Assembly: GCA_001767525.1 (NCBI GenBank)
Contig: MELF01000035.1
Location: 62,001 to 126,000, forward strand
Direction of reading: 5' to 3'
Source of the DNA: Acidobacteria bacterium RIFCSPLOWO2_12_FULL_68_19
Lineage (GTDB): Bacteria; Acidobacteriota; Vicinamibacteria; Vicinamibacterales; UBA2999
DNA length: 64,000 nt
Shown in pieces: positions 125-11,942 of this stretch. How positions within the stretch are numbered: position 1 is the first letter of the stretch; every line of letters starts with the position of its first letter. Below the pieces are notes generated by a model. The model had not been told where the DNA came from. It saw nothing but the letters and a program-made list of their open reading frames with translations, and ran no database searches. Both the position numbers and the translations under genes were made by a program.

Positions 125-1888
125 TCACATCGTGATCCGGACCGCGACCGCGGTCATGTCATCGTACTGGGGTGCGGGGCCGCGAAAAGCGGTGACCGCG
201 TCGAAGATGGCGTCGACGATCATCCGGGCGGGCTCGCGCCGGTGGGCACTGACGATCTCGCACACGCGCTTCGAGCCGAACTCGGCGCCCTGCTCGTTCA
301 CCGCTTCGTAGATCCCGTCCGTGCAGAACACGTACACGTCGCCGCCTTCGAGCGGCATCGTCACCTCGTCGTAGACGACGTCCGGAAACGACCCGAGCGG
401 CACGCCGGGAAGGGCGATCTGGCCGCATTCCTCCCCGGTGCTGCGGATCGGGTAGGGCAGCCCGGAGTTCGAGATGGTGAGCGTCCGCCGCTTCAGGTCG
501 AACAGGGCGTAGCACAGCGTGCAGTAGTACGCCTCGAGCTGGCGCTCGTGCAGGATGGTGTTCATCGCCTGCAGCACGCCGGACGCGCTGAACCGCTCCG
601 GCGCGTAGCGGCGGCGGAAGGTTCGCGACCGGACCAGCTCGGCCGCGAACGCGGCGTACAGCGCCGCCGGGACTCCCTTTCCGGAGACGTCGCCGACGGC
701 GACGACCAGGCTGTTCGGCTCCGGTGTGAGGAAATCGTGGATGTCGCCGCCGAGCTCGCGCGCCGCCGCAAAACGGCCGGCGACGTCGGCGTGCCGAAGC
801 CGCGCCGGCGGCCCCGTCGGTAACAGCGCCCGCTGCACGCGCTGGGCGAACTCAAGCTCGCGCTCGATGCGCTCCTCGTTCCGCCGCACTTCCTCGTAGA
901 GGCGTGCGTTCTCGATCGCCACCGCCGCCTGGCTCGCCAGCAGCGTGACCAGCTCCTTGTGCTCCTTGGTGAAGGCGTCGAGCTCAGGGCTTTCGAGATC
1001 GATCACGCCGATGCAGCGCTCCTTGAGGAGCATCGGCGCCACGAGCTCGGAGCGGACGTCGGGGACCAGATTGAGGTAGCGCGGATCCTGCGACACGTCG
1101 GAGACGAGGACCGCCTCCTTGTGGAGCGCCGCCCAGCCGACGAGGCCGCTGCCGAGCTTCACGCGCTTCGACGTCGGATCCTCGCCGTAGCTGACGGCGA
1201 ACTTCATCTCGAGCTCGCCGGTCGCCTCGTTGAGGAGGAGGATGCCGAACGTCCGATAGTCGATCAGGCGCTTGGTGAGGTTTGCGATGCGCGTCAGCAG
1301 GACTTCGGGGTCGAGGATGGACGATATCTCGCGGCCGATTTCCGCCAGCGTCTCCAGCGTCTCGACGTACTGCCGCTCCGCCTTGAAGAGGCGCGCGTTC
1401 TCGATCGCCACGGCCACGTGCGCGGCGAACTGGCGCAGCAGCGCCTCGTCCTGCGGCGAGAACGCGTCGGTCGTTTCCGCCAGCAGGTTGAGCGCGCCAA
1501 TGACCTTGCCCTTGCGCCGGATCGGCACAGCGAGCTGCGACAGCATGTTCCTCAGCGGGCCGGCGTACCGCGGTTCGCGGCGGATGTCGTTGACGAGAAT
1601 CGGCCGGCCTTCCTCCACCGCCGCGCCGACCACGCCCTGGCCGAGGCGCAGCCGCTGCTTCAGGATCGCGTCGTCGGGATAGCCCGTGGCATAGGCGATG
1701 CGCAGCTCCTGCCGCGCCCCCTCGAGCAGATAGACCGAAAAGGCGTTGAACCGCGTGAGCCTGGCGATGAGCTGCGGAATCTTCGCGAGCAGCTCCTCGA
1801 GATCGAGCACCGCCGTGACTTCGCGCCCGAGTTCGAACAGCGTCGACAGCAGTTCGGTGTCGCTCGGAGGGCGGGGTTGCACGTGCAT
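125..1888 (-). CDS. GAF-GAF-SpoIIE serine/threonine phosphatase (RsbU/PP2C-like)
   Basis: A 587-residue cytosolic protein with two GAF sensor domains (about residues 20-170 and 185-333), a short coiled linker (EEVRRNEERIERELEFAQRV) and a C-terminal SpoIIE/PP2C phosphatase. Metal-binding acidic motifs are visible: GGDIHDF (380-386), GDVSGKG (399-405) and a terminal YDDMTAVAVR. The family dephosphorylates anti-anti-sigma factors of the partner-switching type in response to ligands bound by the GAF domains. The ATG at 1888 was chosen because the GAF homology begins directly after it; the frame is open further upstream, but that part lies antisense to the divergent dehydratase. No STAS or anti-sigma kinase gene is adjacent, so its substrate is unknown. 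It opens a cluster of signalling genes. Confidence 0.9.
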   Translation of the reverse strand: MHVQPRPPSDTELLSTLFELGREVTAVLDLEELLAKIPQLIARLTRFNAFSVYLLEGARQELRIAYATGYPDDAILKQRLRLGQGVVGAAVEEGRPILVNDIRREPRYAGPLRNMLSQLAVPIRRKGKVIGALNLLAETTDAFSPQDEALLRQFAAHVAVAIENARLFKAERQYVETLETLAEIGREISSILDPEVLLTRIANLTKRLIDYRTFGILLLNEATGELEMKFAVSYGEDPTSKRVKLGSGLVGWAALHKEAVLVSDVSQDPRYLNLVPDVRSELVAPMLLKERCIGVIDLESPELDAFTKEHKELVTLLASQAAVAIENARLYEEVRRNEERIERELEFAQRVQRALLPTGPPARLRHADVAGRFAAARELGGDIHDFLTPEPNSLVVAVGDVSGKGVPAALYAAFAAELVRSRTFRRRYAPERFSASGVLQAMNTILHERQLEAYYCTLCYALFDLKRRTLTISNSGLPYPIRSTGEECGQIALPGVPLGSFPDVVYDEVTMPLEGGDVYVFCTDGIYEAVNEQGAEFGSKRVCEIVSAHRREPARMIVDAIFDAVTAFRGPAPQYDDMTAVAVRITM

Positions 1889-1924
1889 GGCTGGACGGGT
1901 CGTTCGAATTATACTGGAGGCTTC

Positions 1925-2404
1925 GTGGCCACCTCCCTCACGCTGCCGCTCGACCACGCCGCGATCGAGCGGATCCTCCCGCACCGGTATCCCTTCTTGC
2001 TCGTCGATCGGATCACCGAGCTCGAACCGGACAAGCGCATCGTCGGCATCAAGAACGTCTCGCTCAACGAGCGGTACCTGTCGCATCAGCCGGGCGAGGC
2101 GCCGACGATGCCGCCGACGATCCTTACCGAGGCGATCGCGCAGGTTGGCGCGATCCTCATCCTGTCGAAGCCCGAGAACCGCGAGAAGCTCCCGTTCTTC
2201 ATGGGGATCGAGCGCGTTCGGTACTACGGTCCCGTGTGCCCAGGCGATGTCGTCGAGATCGAGGCGCGCGTGAAGCGTCTGCGGGGCCGGGTCGGCCAGC
2301 TCACCGGTTTCGCGCGTGTGAACGGGCGCGTCGTGGTCAGCGGCACGATGACGTTCGCCCTCGGGCCCTCCGCCTCTGCCAGCGTCCAGGCTCAGGGAGC
2401 CTGA
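1925..2404 (+). CDS. fabZ: FabZ-like beta-hydroxyacyl-ACP dehydratase
   Basis: A 159-residue hotdog-fold protein. It starts LDHAAIERILPHRYPFLLVD, the classic FabZ N-terminus, and continues with the active-site region SHQPGEAPTMPPTILTEAIAQ and then FMGIERVRYYGPVCPGD. The catalytic His (in SHQPG) and Glu (in LTEAIAQ) are in their usual places, although the common HFPGRPxMPG box is changed. The family dehydrates 3-hydroxyacyl-ACP in fatty acid and lipid A precursor synthesis. The GTG at 1925 was chosen because GGAGG (1916-1920) lies just upstream and homology starts within ten residues. It is divergent from the phosphatase (36 bp gap) and stands apart from any other fatty-acid gene, so it may be a secondary copy. 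Confidence 0.85.
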   Translation: MATSLTLPLDHAAIERILPHRYPFLLVDRITELEPDKRIVGIKNVSLNERYLSHQPGEAPTMPPTILTEAIAQVGAILILSKPENREKLPFFMGIERVRYYGPVCPGDVVEIEARVKRLRGRVGQLTGFARVNGRVVVSGTMTFALGPSASASVQAQGA

Positions 2405-2462
2405 CGGTCCAACGTGTCACATCTGGGGTCGGCAGGAAGGATTGCCGACAGCGCGGTCTGAT

Positions 2463-3659
2463 CTAGCGGCTCGCCGCCTCCTCGGGCTGGGCCGCCGTGC
2501 TGATGCAGTTCCGGCCGTTGGCCTTGGCGCGGTAGAGCGCCGCGTCGGCGCGCGCAATGATCGCCGTGGCGTCGATTTCCCCGGGCGCGGCTGGCGCCAC
2601 CCCGAAGCTGGCCGTCACGGGGATGTCCACCTGGATGTCGCTGACGTTCCACCGCACCGGATGCTCTTCCAGATTGCGCCGGAGCAGGTCGGCAACGCGC
2701 TCGGCGCCGGATGTCGCCGTCTCGGGCAGCAGCGCCAGGAACTCCTCCCCGCCCCACCGGCACTTGAGGTCGCTGCCGCGCAGGACCGTCCTCATGCGCT
2801 GGCCGACGGCCGCGAGCACGGCATCGCCGCACAAGTGCCCGTAGTGGTCGTTGACCTCCTTGAAATGGTCCAGGTCGAACATGATCACGGCGAGTGGCAG
2901 GCGCGACCGGCGGGCCCGGCGGAGCTCGCCGTCCATGACTTCGAGCGCATGCTGCCGGTTGAAGCACCCGGTCAGCGAATCCCGGACGCTGTTCTCATGG
3001 ACCACTTCGAACAGCTCCGCGTTCTTCAGCGCGCCAGCCAGGAGCGCCGCGGCCGCCGTCAGCACGACGCGCTGATGATCCGTCGGCGGTGGGTTGGCGG
3101 CGACGCCGAGCACCCCGACGGGATGACGCCCGACCATCATGGGAAAGCAGATATCGTCCGCGACGCCGACGCTCGAGGCGTCGCCCGCCTCGAGCGCCTT
3201 CCGGGCGGCCGTCTCGCATTCCGCCACCGACCGATCGGCGACGACCGCCAGGGGATGCCACGTCGTGCCGTTGAGCGCCATGGTCCACGCGCCGCGTCCC
3301 TCCGCGAGCGCCGGGAGCTGTTGTGTGGCGACGACCCCGATTGCCGATTGGTCGAGTGACTCGCCCAGCGCTTTGCCGAAGTTCACCAGCCGCTCCATTT
3401 CGGCGACGCGGACATCTGCCTGCCGCGCCTCGGCGGCGGCCGCCACCGCGTGCGCGTGGCTCTCGTGCCGTTTGCGGGCCTGATGAAAGATGAACACGAC
3501 GGCGAGGATGACGAGGGCCGGCACGAGCTGGAGATCCCAACTGTGGTCGATCTCCCGCGCGTAGTCGACGACTCGCCCGAGCGGGCGCGAAATAACGGTG
3601 AAGAGCGCCGCGGTCAGACCGACCAGCAGGAAGAGGTCATTGCGACCGATTAACCGCAT
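2463..3659 (-). CDS. membrane-anchored diguanylate cyclase (GGDEF)
   Basis: A 398-residue protein: two N-terminal hydrophobic segments (about 8-25 and 43-60), a coiled segment (about 62-92), a GAF-like middle and a C-terminal GGDEF domain (about 222-385). The active-site loop is GGEEF at 303-307, with metal-binding Asp in MFDLDHFKEVN and an RxxD inhibitory I-site (R294-D297) five residues before the loop. It should make cyclic di-GMP from two GTP and be product-inhibited. The ATG at 3659 immediately precedes the first membrane helix. It is divergent from the hybrid kinase, with 107 bp between starts holding promoter-like elements for both. Confidence 0.92.
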   Translation of the reverse strand: MRLIGRNDLFLLVGLTAALFTVISRPLGRVVDYAREIDHSWDLQLVPALVILAVVFIFHQARKRHESHAHAVAAAAEARQADVRVAEMERLVNFGKALGESLDQSAIGVVATQQLPALAEGRGAWTMALNGTTWHPLAVVADRSVAECETAARKALEAGDASSVGVADDICFPMMVGRHPVGVLGVAANPPPTDHQRVVLTAAAALLAGALKNAELFEVVHENSVRDSLTGCFNRQHALEVMDGELRRARRSRLPLAVIMFDLDHFKEVNDHYGHLCGDAVLAAVGQRMRTVLRGSDLKCRWGGEEFLALLPETATSGAERVADLLRRNLEEHPVRWNVSDIQVDIPVTASFGVAPAAPGEIDATAIIARADAALYRAKANGRNCISTAAQPEEAASR

Positions 3660-3766: not shown

Positions 3767-5329
<1,563 letters not shown>

Positions 5330-6356
5330 GGCACCACCACCCCCTGCGCGCCCCTCGCCGTGTGTCCGCCCCCGGTCGTCCATCCGCGGCTGGCGAGCGT
5401 CGCCTTCGCCATCTTCGCCTTGTGCTGGAACGCCAGAATCGCGTGGCGCATGATCCGGATCGCTTCGGAGGGAGGCACCGCCGCGCCGAGCGCGTCGCGC
5501 AGACGGCGGATGGCCCGAGCGTGCAGCTGCGACACGCGTGACTCGTTGACGCCGATCTCGGCGCCAATCTGCTTCATCGTCGCCTCACCGTAGTAGTAGA
5601 GGCTGATCACCTTCTGCTCGCGCGGCGGCAAGGAGGCAATCGCCGCGCGCACGCGCGCCTTCGTCTCCTCCCGCTCGAAGACGCGATCCGGCTGCTCCGG
5701 CTCCGCCGGCACGAGCGCCGGCGGCAGCGACGATTCGCTCAGGTGATCTCCGCCCGCCAGCGGCGAGGTCGACTCGATGGCGTTGATCCGGACGATGGTC
5801 CGGCTGAGGCGCTTCTCGTCGGACCCGACCCGGGCCGCGAGATCCGCCAGCGACGGCTCGCATCCCAACTCACGCCGGAGCTGCTCGCGCGCCGCCTCGA
5901 GCTCGCGCCGCTGCCGGCGCACCCCGCGCGGCCAGGCATCCTTGCGCAGCGCGTCGATCATGGCCCCGCGCACGCGCCGCTCGGCAAACGTCTCGAACTT
6001 GATGCCCCGGGCGTCGTCGAACCGGCGCGCCGCGTCGATGAGGCCGATCACTCCGTCCTGGACGAGGTCTCCGATGTCAATCGAATGAGGCATCGTCGCG
6101 GCAACGCGGCGGGCGAGCTGCTCCACGAACGGAATCGCAGCAACCACGCGCGGGTCAACTCTTCCGGTCGAGGAGCGCATCAGGGGACCTCCGGCGTGTC
6201 CGTATGGCAACTCGAGTACCAAGCCGTACAGGCCTCCGCTTCCCTTATTGGGGAGATGGCCCAGCGGAGACTGTAAGTGCTTCTTACTTCTGCACGTTAT
6301 GGAAATCGCCGGGACGACTGGGGGCGATTGCCGGAACGCGCCAAATCGGGTAGATC

Positions 6357-6370
6357 GTCAAAATATTGAC
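6357..6370 (+). promoter_or_regulatory. operator-like inverted repeat, copy 1
   Basis: GTCAAAATATTGAC is a perfect inverted repeat (GTCAA-4-TTGAC). It fits the consensus GTCAAnATATTGrC shared with the sites at 6389-6404 and 7005-7020, and lies upstream of the sigma factor gene. A transcription-factor site is inferred from repetition and symmetry. Confidence 0.5.
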
Positions 6371-6388
6371 CACTAGGCGCGTCTATTT

Positions 6389-6404
6389 CGCCAATATATT
6401 GACA
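6389..6404 (-). promoter_or_regulatory. operator-like motif, copy 2
   Basis: Read on the minus strand this is TGTCAATATATTGGCG, identical at 15 of 16 positions to the motif before the NtrC-type gene. It has the same orientation relative to its downstream gene (the sigma factor). Confidence 0.5.
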
Positions 6405-6499
6405 GTCAAGATTACAAAAGAGGCGTCTGTTTACGACTGAGACAGAGGTTGCCCGGTTAGGCGCCCCGTGTGCTGATTCGGAACGAGTGGCGGTCCTAT

Positions 6500-6694
6500 T
6501 CAAACTGCGGTCAGATTCGACCGCCCTCGGATCTCCCGCGCCGTGCTCATGGCGTCGAGCACGCTGGCAACCACCTGCGCGGCACGGGAGCGGCTGGCGT
6601 CGTCGGGCGCGTGCACCTCGAGCATTTCCGCATGCGCGAGGATGATCCCGAGCTGATTGTTCAGCTGATGAAACAGCTCCCGCAACTCGTTCAC
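6500..6694 (-). CDS. orphan histidine phosphoacceptor (HisKA-like) domain protein
   Basis: A 64-residue protein consisting only of what looks like the first DHp helix and part of the second: NELRELFHQLNNQLGIILAH resembles the H-box of NtrB-type kinases (HELNN), with His at about residue 8, then a hydrophilic helix rich in Ala and Ser. No ATPase domain follows; the frame closes at 6500 and nothing kinase-like lies downstream. The GTG at 6694 overlaps the stop of the HTH gene as GTGA, indicating translational coupling. It might accept phosphate from another kinase or mimic a DHp domain to bind a response regulator such as the divergent NtrC-type protein. A degenerate kinase fragment is the alternative. 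Confidence 0.6.
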   Translation of the reverse strand: MNELRELFHQLNNQLGIILAHAEMLEVHAPDDASRSRAAQVVASVLDAMSTAREIRGRSNLTAV

Positions 6695-6897
6695 GCGTGG
6701 CGCCCGTTGGCGTTGATCTCGCTGGCGCGTCCCGGACGGACGGGATCGCGCCACAGCGAGTCGGCAAAGATGCGAATCGACCCGCCCGCCGTCCGCACGT
6801 ATTCCACCTTCCCGGCGGAGATCCAGTTGTAGATAGTGCGGCGGCTCACGCCGACAGCCTCACAAGCCTTCATGATGGACAGAGTTTGGCGATCCAT
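6691..6897 (-). CDS. small excisionase/MerR-type helix-turn-helix protein
   Basis: A 68-residue DNA-binding protein of the excisionase (helix_turn_helix_17, BldC-like) family. It has IMKACEAVGVSRRTIYNWIS, then the wing AGKVEYVRTAGGSIRIFADS, typical of winged HTH proteins that bind short direct or inverted repeats. The ATG at 6897 starts the family homology. It is coupled (GTGA overlap) to the orphan HisKA-like gene and is divergent from the NtrC-type activator (129 bp between starts). No integrase is near, so a regulatory rather than excisionase role is likely; the TGTCAAnATATTGrC sites nearby are candidate targets. Confidence 0.78.
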   Translation of the reverse strand: MDRQTLSIMKACEAVGVSRRTIYNWISAGKVEYVRTAGGSIRIFADSLWRDPVRPGRASEINANGRHA

Positions 6898-6988
6898 GTC
6901 TGCTCTCTTGCAGGCCTCCCACCCACCTGCTCTATCGGCCGGGAGATACAAATCCTTAGGCTGGACCCGCCGGAGGCCTGAACCCTGG

Positions 6989-7003
6989 GGCCGGGGGCTT
7001 GCT
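6989..7003 (+). promoter_or_regulatory. possible sigma54-type promoter of the NtrC-like gene
   Basis: GG at 6989-6990 and GC at 7001-7002 (within TTGCT) have the spacing of a -24/-12 element, with CC in place of CA after the GG. If real, transcription would begin about 7014, inside the operator-like motif. The match is partial in a G-rich stretch and could be chance. Confidence 0.25.
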
Positions 7004-7004
7004 G

Positions 7005-7020
7005 TGTCAAGATATTGGCG
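7005..7020 (+). promoter_or_regulatory. operator-like motif, copy 3
   Basis: TGTCAAGATATTGGCG ends seven bases before the ATG of the NtrC-type gene at 7027. It matches the minus-strand motif at 6389-6404 at 15 of 16 positions. A bound protein here would cover the translation or transcription start of the activator gene. Confidence 0.5.
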
Positions 7021-7026
7021 CCTCCG

Positions 7027-8403
7027 ATGACTCCGGCAACTCCTCACATTCTCTTCGTGGACGATGAGCCGGCGCTGCGGACCGTGATGGTCGAGCGGCT
7101 GCGGGACCACGGCTTCGAGGTGGCGGAGGCCGAGAGCGGCGAGCGGGCGCTCGAGCTGCTCGATCAATTCGCGTTCGACATCGTCATCACCGACCTGCGG
7201 ATGCCCGGTGTCGACGGCGGGAGCGTGATCGAGTCGGCGGTCGGCCGGTACCCGGGCATCGTGGCCATCGTCATCACGGGCTACGGCACCATCAAGGACG
7301 CGGTTGACGCAATCAAGCGCGGAGCGTCGGACTTCATCGCCAAGCCGTTTCAGTTCGACGAACTGATGCACGTGCTCGAGAAGGCGCTCGAGCAGCGGCG
7401 GCTTGCGTCGGAGAACGCGTACCTCCGGTCGCAGCTCGAGGAGCGGTATCAGTTCGGCGGCATTCTCGGTCGCAGCCGGCCAATGCAGGATCTCTTCCAC
7501 CTGGTCGAGACCGTCGCCGGATCGAGCAGCACGATCCTGATCACCGGCGAGACGGGCACCGGCAAGGAGGTCGTCGCCCGCGCCATCCACCACAACAGCC
7601 CGCGGCGGGCGCACCGATTCGTCGCGTTGAATTGCAGCGCGATTCCGGAGACGCTGCTCGAGGCCGAGCTGTTCGGCCACGTGCGCGGGGCGTTCACCGG
7701 TGCGGTGGGGACGCGGCAGGGGCGCTTCGAGCAGGCGCACAAGGGAACGCTCTTTCTCGATGAGGTGGGGACGATGAGTCCCGGGCTGCAGGTGAAGCTG
7801 CTGCGTGCGCTGCAGGAACGCGAGTTCGAGCGCGTCGGCGACAGCCAGACGATCAAGATCGATGTCCGCGTCATCGCGGCCACGAATTCGGATCTCACGC
7901 GACTGGTCGCGGGCGGCGCGTTCCGGGAGGATCTCTTCTACCGCCTGAACGTGATTCCGATTCAACTGCCGCCGCTCCGCGAGCGGCGCGACGACATCCC
8001 GTTGTTCGTGAAGCACTTCCTCGCGAAGTTCGCGCCGGGCTCATCGATCCACGCCTCACAGAGCGCACTGCGCGCGCTGATGGCGTACGACTGGCCGGGC
8101 AACGTGCGTCAGCTCGAGAACGCGATGGAGCGTGCGGTGGCGCTCTGCGCCGGACACCAGGAGATCGACGTCGCCGATCTGCCGCCCGAACTGCAGCAGG
8201 CCCCGACGGCCTCGACGCCGCCCTACGTCGAGTTCCCCGACGACGGCCTCGACTTGGCGCGCTATCTCGCCACGATCGAGCGCGACCTCATCCATCGCGC
8301 GCTCGACCGGACACGGGGCAACCGGAACAAGGCCGCCGACCTGCTGCGCATCAAGCGCACGACGCTCGTCGAGAAGCTGAAGCGCATGGGAGCCGAGGAC
8401 TGA
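7027..8403 (+). CDS. NtrC-family sigma54-dependent response regulator
   Basis: A 458-residue regulator with an N-terminal receiver (phosphorylatable D56 in ITDLRMPGVDG), a central AAA+ domain with Walker A GETGTGKE, the sigma54-contacting GAFTGA loop and Walker B-type GTLFLDEVG, and a C-terminal Fis-type helix-turn-helix (RNKAADLLRIKRTTLVEKLK). When phosphorylated it should oligomerise and drive open-complex formation at sigma54 promoters. The ATG at 7027 was chosen over an upstream TTG because the receiver starts seven residues later. No dedicated full-length kinase is adjacent; the hybrid kinase 1.7 kb away or the orphan phosphoacceptor protein could feed it. Its stop overlaps the next start (TGATG). 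Confidence 0.93.
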   Translation: MTPATPHILFVDDEPALRTVMVERLRDHGFEVAEAESGERALELLDQFAFDIVITDLRMPGVDGGSVIESAVGRYPGIVAIVITGYGTIKDAVDAIKRGASDFIAKPFQFDELMHVLEKALEQRRLASENAYLRSQLEERYQFGGILGRSRPMQDLFHLVETVAGSSSTILITGETGTGKEVVARAIHHNSPRRAHRFVALNCSAIPETLLEAELFGHVRGAFTGAVGTRQGRFEQAHKGTLFLDEVGTMSPGLQVKLLRALQEREFERVGDSQTIKIDVRVIAATNSDLTRLVAGGAFREDLFYRLNVIPIQLPPLRERRDDIPLFVKHFLAKFAPGSSIHASQSALRALMAYDWPGNVRQLENAMERAVALCAGHQEIDVADLPPELQQAPTASTPPYVEFPDDGLDLARYLATIERDLIHRALDRTRGNRNKAADLLRIKRTTLVEKLKRMGAED

Positions 8404-8792
8404 TGCCGCCACGCTTTGCGTACTGGACGATTCTGGCCGGCGGGCTGCCGACGGCCTTCCGCGCGGCGGAGCGCGAGGAGCTGTTGCCGACCTTCAAGCG
8501 CATCCAGGAGAGGCATCCGGATGCGGAAATGAAGTACTTCGCGCGGGGCAGGCTGTGGGCCTCGCCGGAGGAGGCGCGCCGAGCCGCTGACGCCGCGCGA
8601 GAGCGGCGCCAGTCGCGCCATGGGCGCGACTGGCGGCCGGGCGGCGAGCACCGCGATCCCCGCCAGCCCTTCAAGGAGGCGAAGAAGGCGCGCAACCTGA
8701 AGGGACGCCGGCAGCGCTTCGAGCGGCGCCGGGAGGGACAGTCCGGGCGTCCAGGCGGTCCGTCCCGGCCGGCCGGCCGACGCCGATCATGA
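8403..8792 (+). CDS. conserved hypothetical, basic C-terminal tail
   Basis: A 129-residue protein of unknown function. The first half is folded-looking (PRFAYWTILAGGLPTAFRAA, LLPTFKRIQERHPDAEMKYF), and the second half is rich in Arg, Lys and Gly (GRRQRFERRREGQSGRPGG), as in nucleic-acid-binding tails. The ATG overlaps the preceding stop (TGATG), and its own end overlaps the next gene by four bases (ATGA), so all three genes are probably co-translated. I do not recognise a named family with certainty. Confidence 0.75.
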   Translation: MPPRFAYWTILAGGLPTAFRAAEREELLPTFKRIQERHPDAEMKYFARGRLWASPEEARRAADAARERRQSRHGRDWRPGGEHRDPRQPFKEAKKARNLKGRRQRFERRREGQSGRPGGPSRPAGRRRS

Positions 8793-10398: not shown

Positions 10399-10899
10399 TC
10401 AGTACGGCCGGACGTCGGAGGCGTCGACTTCGACGCTGACGGCCTGCCCGATCAGATCGACCGAGAGGACCAGTCGCGCGCGGGTTCCCTTGCGCACGAG
10501 GCGACCGGCCACGCCCTTGAGGGGGCCGTGGACGACTTCGGCCATCATGCCTTCCTTGATCAGGGGGCACGGATCGTAGGCGAGATCGCTCTCGACGAGC
10601 TGTCGGATCCCTTCGATCTCGTGTTCCGGGATCGACGCGGGCTCGCCCTCGAACGACACGATGTTGACCACTCCGGTGCACTTCAGGATCGGCAGGCGCT
10701 CGCGCGGATCGAAGCGCGCGAAGCAGTAGCCTGGGAAGAGCGGCCAATCGATCTTCTTCTTGCGATCCTTCCAGCGACTCCAGCGGGTGACGGTCGGCAG
10801 GAAGGTCTCGATGTGCTTCTGCTCGAGCTGCTTTCGCACCACCTGCTCGTGTCGCGAGCGGGTCCAGAGCGCGTACCAGGCGTCGGTCATCGCGGTCAT
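10399..10899 (-). CDS. NusG-like specialised antitermination factor (RfaH/UpxY type)
   Basis: A 166-residue NusG-family protein: an NGN domain beginning WYALWTRSRHEQVVRKQL, with WPLFPGYCFARFD, and a C-terminal KOW domain (VVHGPLKGVAGRLVRKG). It binds RNA polymerase and modulates pausing or termination. The gene is not beside secE or rplK, and the sequence is of the divergent paralogue type, so a specialised factor is likelier than the housekeeping NusG. The ATG at 10899 overlaps the ppiC stop as ATGA; a second ATG at 10890 is possible. Its operon lies downstream of O-antigen export genes, a usual target class for such paralogues. Confidence 0.85.
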   Translation of the reverse strand: MTAMTDAWYALWTRSRHEQVVRKQLEQKHIETFLPTVTRWSRWKDRKKKIDWPLFPGYCFARFDPRERLPILKCTGVVNIVSFEGEPASIPEHEIEGIRQLVESDLAYDPCPLIKEGMMAEVVHGPLKGVAGRLVRKGTRARLVLSVDLIGQAVSVEVDASDVRPY

Positions 10900-11942
10900 C
10901 CCGCCAGCGTCTTTCGCCGTTCCGCGAGCGCTTGCTCGTACGCTTTCCGCAACTCCTCGTTGCGCCACGTGATCGTCGCCTGGCTCCGAAGCCTTTCGAG
11001 ATACTTGAGCCGTTCGGCCGCCATCTTGTCGCTCCCCACCTTGTTGCTGATGTCGGCGCGCGCGTCCTCGAAGCCGCGGATCTTCGCCTCGGTGCGCGAC
11101 TCGAGCTTGAGGATCTGGTAGCCCCGCGAGGCGCGGGTCACCCCGGTCAGGTCGCCCAGCTTCATCGTGCCGAGCTGCGCCTGCAGTGCGTCGGCGAGCT
11201 CGCTCACCCGGATGGGGCCGATCAGCCCGCCGTTCGCCTTCGACGGCGCGTCGGAGTATTCGGCCGCCAGCCTCGGGAACGGCTCGCCCGCCAGCAGCCG
11301 TTTCCGCACCGCTTCCGCTTCCTCTTTCGCCTCGTCGTCCTGCGCGACGTTGATTCCCTTCTCGGTGACTGGCACCTCGACGAGGATCTCCCGCAGCGTC
11401 ACTTCGGACGGCGTGGTGAACTCGTCCTTGTGCGCGTCATAGTAGGCGCGCGCCTCGGCCTCGGTGATGCTGATCTTGTCGGCCACGTCGCGCCGCTGCG
11501 CCTCGGAGGCGAGCATCTGCCGTTCCAGCGCCCGGCGCAGATCGGGCATCGTCATCCCTTCCTGTTTGAGCGCCGCCTGGAATTGCTCCTCGCTCTCGAT
11601 GTTGTTCGACTTCTTGATGTTCTCGACGATGCTCTTGAACTGCTCCTCGCCGAGCACGAGGCCGAGCTCGCGCCCCCGCTGTATCAGCAGCAGTTCGTCC
11701 ACCGCGTCGAGAATGAGCTGCGGCGTCACCTGGGCGATGGCGGTCCTGAGCGCCGGGCTGTCCGGCGTCACGTTGGCCAGTTCCGGCCGCCCGCGCAGGA
11801 CGGCCACTTGCCGCTGTTCGAACTCGGTCTTCGTCAGGATGTCGCCGTTGACGTTGACGAGCACCTGCTCGATGATTTCCGCCCCGAGTGCGACGGTCAC
11901 GGTGGAGAGCAGCACGGCGACGACGACGCTTCGCTTGAACAT
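10896..11942 (-). CDS. periplasmic SurA/PpiC-type peptidyl-prolyl isomerase
   Basis: A 348-residue exported chaperone. A signal peptide (MFKRSVVVAVLLSTVTVALG, cleavage near AE) is followed by a SurA-N-like helical domain (VNVNGDILTKTEFEQRQVAV) and a parvulin domain (EVTLREILVEVP, EPFPRLAAEYSDAPSKANGG, GLIGPIRVSEL). It should help fold outer-membrane and periplasmic proteins. The ATG at 11942 was preferred to one at 11966 because AGGAA lies at suitable distance and the signal peptide starts there. It follows mfd by 25 bp and is coupled to the NusG-like gene. Confidence 0.9.
   Translation of the reverse strand: MFKRSVVVAVLLSTVTVALGAEIIEQVLVNVNGDILTKTEFEQRQVAVLRGRPELANVTPDSPALRTAIAQVTPQLILDAVDELLLIQRGRELGLVLGEEQFKSIVENIKKSNNIESEEQFQAALKQEGMTMPDLRRALERQMLASEAQRRDVADKISITEAEARAYYDAHKDEFTTPSEVTLREILVEVPVTEKGINVAQDDEAKEEAEAVRKRLLAGEPFPRLAAEYSDAPSKANGGLIGPIRVSELADALQAQLGTMKLGDLTGVTRASRGYQILKLESRTEAKIRGFEDARADISNKVGSDKMAAERLKYLERLRSQATITWRNEELRKAYEQALAERRKTLAG

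Follow-up and report, generated by a model that had tools for sequence, protein, structure and literature searches.

Control of a sigma-54 promoter from an enhancer bound by an NtrC-type response regulator is a well known kind of mechanism, and at glnA the NtrC sites are spaced by roughly three helical turns. In the regulatory region of glnALG in Escherichia coli, a sigma-54 promoter is preceded by paired NtrC enhancer sites, and further sites serve self-repression by NtrC (PMC3870243; PMC7408454). NtrX, a member of the NtrC family studied in Brucella and Sinorhizobium, reads CAA-N2-5-TTG and represses where its site overlaps the transcription start (PMC9223101). The NmpRSTU system of Myxococcus xanthus joins an NtrC-like regulator to a hybrid-kinase relay, and two palindromes precede its sigma-54 promoter (PMC11841059). 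In the flagellar hierarchies (FlgSR, FlrBC and FleSR, with FliA), a two-component NtrC-type activator acts with sigma-54 and a sigma-28 tier follows (PMC3930126).

The locus analysed here resembles each of these systems and differs from each of them. As at glnALG, paired sites stand before a predicted sigma-54 promoter and a further site is a likely autorepression site, but the palindrome is another one and the target would be the gene of a FliA/WhiG-family sigma factor instead of glutamine synthetase. An NtrC-family regulator and a CAA...TTG-type site are shared with NtrX. The regulator lies below the NCBIfam cut-offs for AtoC (468 of 714 bits), NtrC (440 of 559) and NtrX (372 of 600, the equivalog cut-off) and is therefore not an NtrX, and a sigma gene with a tandem sigma-54 enhancer, as predicted for this locus, does not appear in the consulted passages of PMC9223101. 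With NmpRSTU the locus has in common an NtrC-type regulator, a hybrid kinase and two palindromes before a predicted sigma-54 promoter, whereas the NmpRSTU palindrome is GCGCA-N5-TGCGC and the consulted passages of PMC11841059 name no sigma factor gene as target. With the flagellar hierarchies it shares a two-component NtrC-type activator with sigma-54 and a sigma-28 tier, as far as these are predicted here. Unlike them, the present genome has no detectable flagellin gene, the sigma gene itself is the putative sigma-54 target, and a local sigma-28-type promoter is predicted to serve a small operon encoding a helix-turn-helix (HTH) protein and a DHp protein.

The features of the locus, which lies within a 64 kb stretch of DNA analysed as a whole (the window), are collected in Table 1. 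The genes are ordered hybrid kinase, sigma factor, DHp-like gene, HTH gene and NtrC-type gene, with the 3' end of the sigma gene overlapping the kinase gene tail to tail. This order is common to about 100 genomes, the named ones mostly Acidobacteriota with Vicinamibacterales among them, and the cassette layout, as judged from these assemblies, is kept throughout one bacterial order (Vicinamibacteria, Acidobacteriota). The genomes counted below are related, and the counts are thus not independent; chance levels for site counts were taken from Markov-shuffled controls. Around the cassette, a GAF-SpoIIE phosphatase and a GGDEF protein adjoin the hybrid kinase on the left (window 128-3659), a 129-residue protein matching neither Pfam nor NCBIfam (8403-8792) follows the NtrC-type gene in many relatives, and a NusG-family protein resembling UpxY-type antiterminators is encoded beside a Dus gene (10402-10968); a NusG-family gene also adjoins the cassette in some relatives.

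Table 1. Features of the cassette, in window coordinates.
Feature	Position	Strand	Remarks
Hybrid histidine kinase (PAS, HisKA, HATPase, receiver)	3767..5329	+	conserved cassette partner
FliA/WhiG-family sigma factor gene	5155..6180	-	ATG start at 6180
Predicted sigma-54 promoter (-24/-12) of sigma gene	6207..6221	-	TGGTACTCGAGTTGC
Putative proximal tandem enhancer site of sigma gene (palindrome)	6356..6371	-	33 bp from distal site, start to start; minus-strand reading GGTCAATATTTTGACG, plus-strand reading CGTCAAAATATTGACC
Putative distal tandem enhancer (UAS) site of sigma gene (palindrome)	6389..6404	-	TGTCAATATATTGGCG
DHp-only protein, 64 aa	6500..6694	-	GTGA overlap with HTH stop
Small excisionase/MerR-type HTH protein, 68 aa	6691..6897	-	HTH_17
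Predicted sigma-28-type promoter of HTH/DHp operon	6933..6959	-	CTAAGG-N15-CCGATA
Single palindrome overlapping NtrC-type gene start region	7005..7020	+	TGTCAAGATATTGGCG; putative autorepression site
NtrC-type response regulator (receiver, AAA+, Fis-type HTH)	7027..8403	+	proposed binder

The earlier note on this DNA had described three sites fitting TGTCAAnATATTGrC, and all three are present where it placed them, with the distal and the single site identical at 15 of 16 bases, as claimed. The consensus over the three 16-mers is YGYCAA-N4-TTGRCR, from which the distal site deviates at no position and the proximal one at one. The core of the proximal site (6357-6370), which had been called a perfect inverted repeat, falls short of that description: its arms GTCAA/TTGAC are perfect and one central pair (A/A) is unpaired. 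Little weight can be given to the argument that the distal and the single site have the same orientation relative to their downstream genes, since the motif reads almost alike on both strands and the small difference between its halves is lost at the sigma gene in relatives. The view that such matches are improbable by chance is well borne out. At 0-1 mismatch TGTCAAnATATTGRC occurs three times in the whole 4.2 Mb genome, each time in this locus and never at random positions, and the reversed pattern used as control has no match in the same scan even at 2 mismatches. The window holds seven matches at up to 3 mismatches where 1.5 are expected, a number reached in 0 of 100 shuffles. A perfect palindrome elsewhere in the genome (C47:110789) falls within a long open frame and was taken as chance. 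In about 100 related genomes, sites are found at the same positions far above chance, and the orthologues of both the sigma and the NtrC-type genes keep the motif upstream.

The sigma protein scores 197.8 bits against TIGR02479, above the subfamily cut-off of 189.6; it is the sole FliA/WhiG-type sigma found in the genome, where its other sigma relatives share 29-33% identity with it. Upstream of its gene, a site at 0-1 mismatch is found in 93 of 100 genomes (control 1.3%). A tandem pair, defined by summed mismatches of no more than 3, is spaced by 30-33 bp, i.e., three helix turns, in 79 of 100 related genomes and otherwise in four cases; in the controls such pairs number 0.15 per 100 over all spacings between 16 and 120 bp, with none spaced by 31-33 bp. 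A second count, confined to 30-33 bp, gave 81 of 100 genomes, representing 57 of 68 genera and 13 of 14 families. Downstream of the pair, TGGYAY-N5-TTGC has its single occurrence in the 64 kb window at the predicted sigma-54 promoter, and in the relatives the best sigma-54 hit upstream of the sigma gene is this sequence or a near variant. Scored with a hand-written matrix, these promoters reach a median of 11.3 against 3.8 in controls (100 genomes), with 94% exceeding the 95th percentile of the controls. In 73 of 90 genomes, 146-150 bp separate the start of the proximal site from that of the sigma-54 element; this distance is unlike the leader length of the sigma gene, which varies widely. The conserved pair with its predicted sigma-54 promoter is the classic geometry of an NtrC-type enhancer and, with RpoN encoded in the genome, the paired sites upstream of a -24/-12 promoter have the composition expected of a UAS system.

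That one regulator acts on both the sigma and the NtrC-type genes, as the earlier note had proposed, is most likely right. The spacing of the tandem pair and the presence of a predicted sigma-54 promoter make the neighbouring NtrC-type response regulator the most likely binder of all three sites. This protein has the domain set required of an NtrC-type sigma-54 activator, including an AAA+ domain that carries GAFTGA (present in 77 of 80 orthologues). In 80 cassette orthologues the recognition helix reads KRTTL(V/I)EK with almost no variation; in nine paralogues it is SRTT(L/F)IDK, and no good upstream motif was found among them.

The same note had suggested that the regulator is the 68-residue HTH protein, which would bind the three sites and control both flanking genes. 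Its gene does sit between the sites, the protein is very strongly conserved, and motif and HTH gene adjoin in many genomes. Against it, a 0-1-mismatch site within 260 bp upstream is kept at 15 of 15 NtrC-type loci that lack the HTH gene, including three (G132-134) where the NtrC-type and sigma genes are adjacent and the site detected therefore belongs to the pair of the sigma gene. Conversely, 29 of 81 cassettes that contain the HTH gene have no good site at the NtrC-type gene. One relative (G050) has an isolated NtrC-type gene with its site, about 60 kb away from the HTH gene; there the sigma gene retains its tandem pair, and no 0-1-mismatch site lies upstream of the HTH gene. The HTH protein was rejected as binder on the HTH-less loci and this relocation, and the geometry is in any case that of a sigma-54 enhancer; we regard its role as binder as highly improbable. 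Some members of the CRP/FNR family read TGTCA-N6-TGACA, and the palindrome can be read in this way too, a resemblance that raises the alternative of an unlinked regulator, e.g., of this family, binding the sites within a wider regulon. Such an arrangement is very unlikely, as the genome holds no other good site, and the 30-33 bp pair at a near-fixed distance from the sigma-54 promoter demands an enhancer binder of the NtrC type. A further conserved sequence, TGTCAACATACTGAC(A/C), was observed in six relatives (G011, G022, G026, G030, G034 and G035), with copies at L076:5295-5310 (G011) and in L039, L031 and L022. The G011 copy lies between UDP-glucose dehydrogenase-like and glycosyltransferase-like genes, and the flanks look similar in the other relatives examined; it may mark another target of the NtrC-type regulator.

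With the NtrC-type regulator as binder, the function of the single site at its own gene has to be considered. A site at 0-1 mismatch is found there in 67 of 96 genomes (Markov control 1%), mostly ending no more than about 30 bp from the start codon. Sigma-54 promoters were sought at the NtrC-type and HTH genes and none was found at either. Since the site overlaps the start region of a gene without such a promoter, autorepression, by occlusion, is its likeliest role. In 34 of 96 genomes (control 0.1) a TTGAC box upstream is spaced so as to place the site on the would-be -10 element, which fits occlusion; the window's own copy is without a clear -35 box, which tells against the reading favoured here. 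It is conceivable that the same binder at this site activates the NtrC-type gene or the divergent HTH gene, given that activators of the NtrC class can autoactivate and that the HTH start lies some 115 bp downstream of the site. The lack of sigma-54 promoters at both genes and the position on the -10 of a TTGAC-type promoter in those 34 genomes speak against activation, which we consider unlikely though far from negligible. In three families (f10, f14 and f15) the right half of this site has degenerated, leaving TGTCAAAATACCG at the NtrC-type gene, and autoregulation is therefore not universal; the tandem pair at the sigma gene is mostly retained there.

The HTH protein is likely a target of the cascade, not the binder. 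Its core residues are nearly invariant in 87 orthologues, and against the BldC family (NF033787) it scores 24.5 bits, below the cut-off of 77. The DHp protein has a histidine invariant in 93 orthologues, located in an H-box-like helix of a predicted helical hairpin (pLDDT 93.6), and no ATPase domain, i.e., it is a DHp-only protein. No Pfam match to known HisKA or HPt families was obtained at E up to 1. In a Foldseek comparison the GacS DHp domain came out best (7n0e_A; TM 0.77-0.80, with a weak E of 0.48). A histidine phosphotransfer function is plausible for this protein. Of 85 genomes, 77 carry CT[AG]-N17-19-CCGATA before the HTH gene (control 0.13). Where the HTH gene is missing, a CCGATA element of the same type precedes the DHp gene in 7 of 11 genomes; G132-134, which have neither gene, lack it. 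The cassette sigma would, we infer, read this sigma-28-type promoter. Other CTA-N18-CCGATA sites in the genome show no excess over control. A bactofilin gene, with CCGATA upstream in 15 close relatives, was considered as a second target and rejected, the order-wide element being TAGACA-N17-TATACT, a housekeeping-type promoter; no second target of this tier was established in the genome or its relatives.

From the sites, their conservation, their spacing and the promoter elements, all read from the sequence, we infer binding, activation and autorepression, the reading of the sigma-28-type promoter by the sigma factor and any phosphotransfer. YGYCAA-N4-TTGRCR would be the operator of the NtrC-type regulator, whose dimers on the two tandem sites, some 167 and 200 bp before the presumed transcription start, would form the enhancer. 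Phosphorylation, probably by the neighbouring hybrid kinase, would lead to oligomerisation, and the oligomer would loop to RNA polymerase carrying sigma-54 at its promoter, probably switching on the FliA/WhiG-type sigma gene. On the single site, the regulator would most likely limit transcription of its own gene, and the sigma factor would direct transcription of the HTH gene and the overlapping DHp gene. We hold with considerable confidence that the NtrC-type regulator binds all three sites and that this chain, from sigma-54 enhancer through the FliA/WhiG sigma to HTH/DHp with autorepression, is the correct reading.

In the literature searched, no described counterpart of such a cascade was found (a FliA/WhiG target, no flagellin and a sigma-28-type HTH/DHp tier), and no regulatory cascade from Vicinamibacteria turned up. 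The arrangement suggests that the sigma-54/sigma-28 logic of flagellar systems has been put to another purpose in a flagellin-less genome. Only tentatively, and with more doubt than conviction, can it be extended to an order-wide, non-flagellar sigma-54 to FliA/WhiG cascade in which the DHp phosphotransfer protein feeds back on the hybrid kinase and the regulator, forming an undescribed cell-state switch. Vicinamibacteria are abundant and hardly cultured, and an enhancer and predicted sigma-54 and sigma-28-type promoters that can be read from the sequence in about 100 genomes provide a testable map of the binder, of which sigma drives what and of a candidate phosphorelay. If true, the feedback cascade would be a switch for cell state, be it surface, biofilm or developmental.
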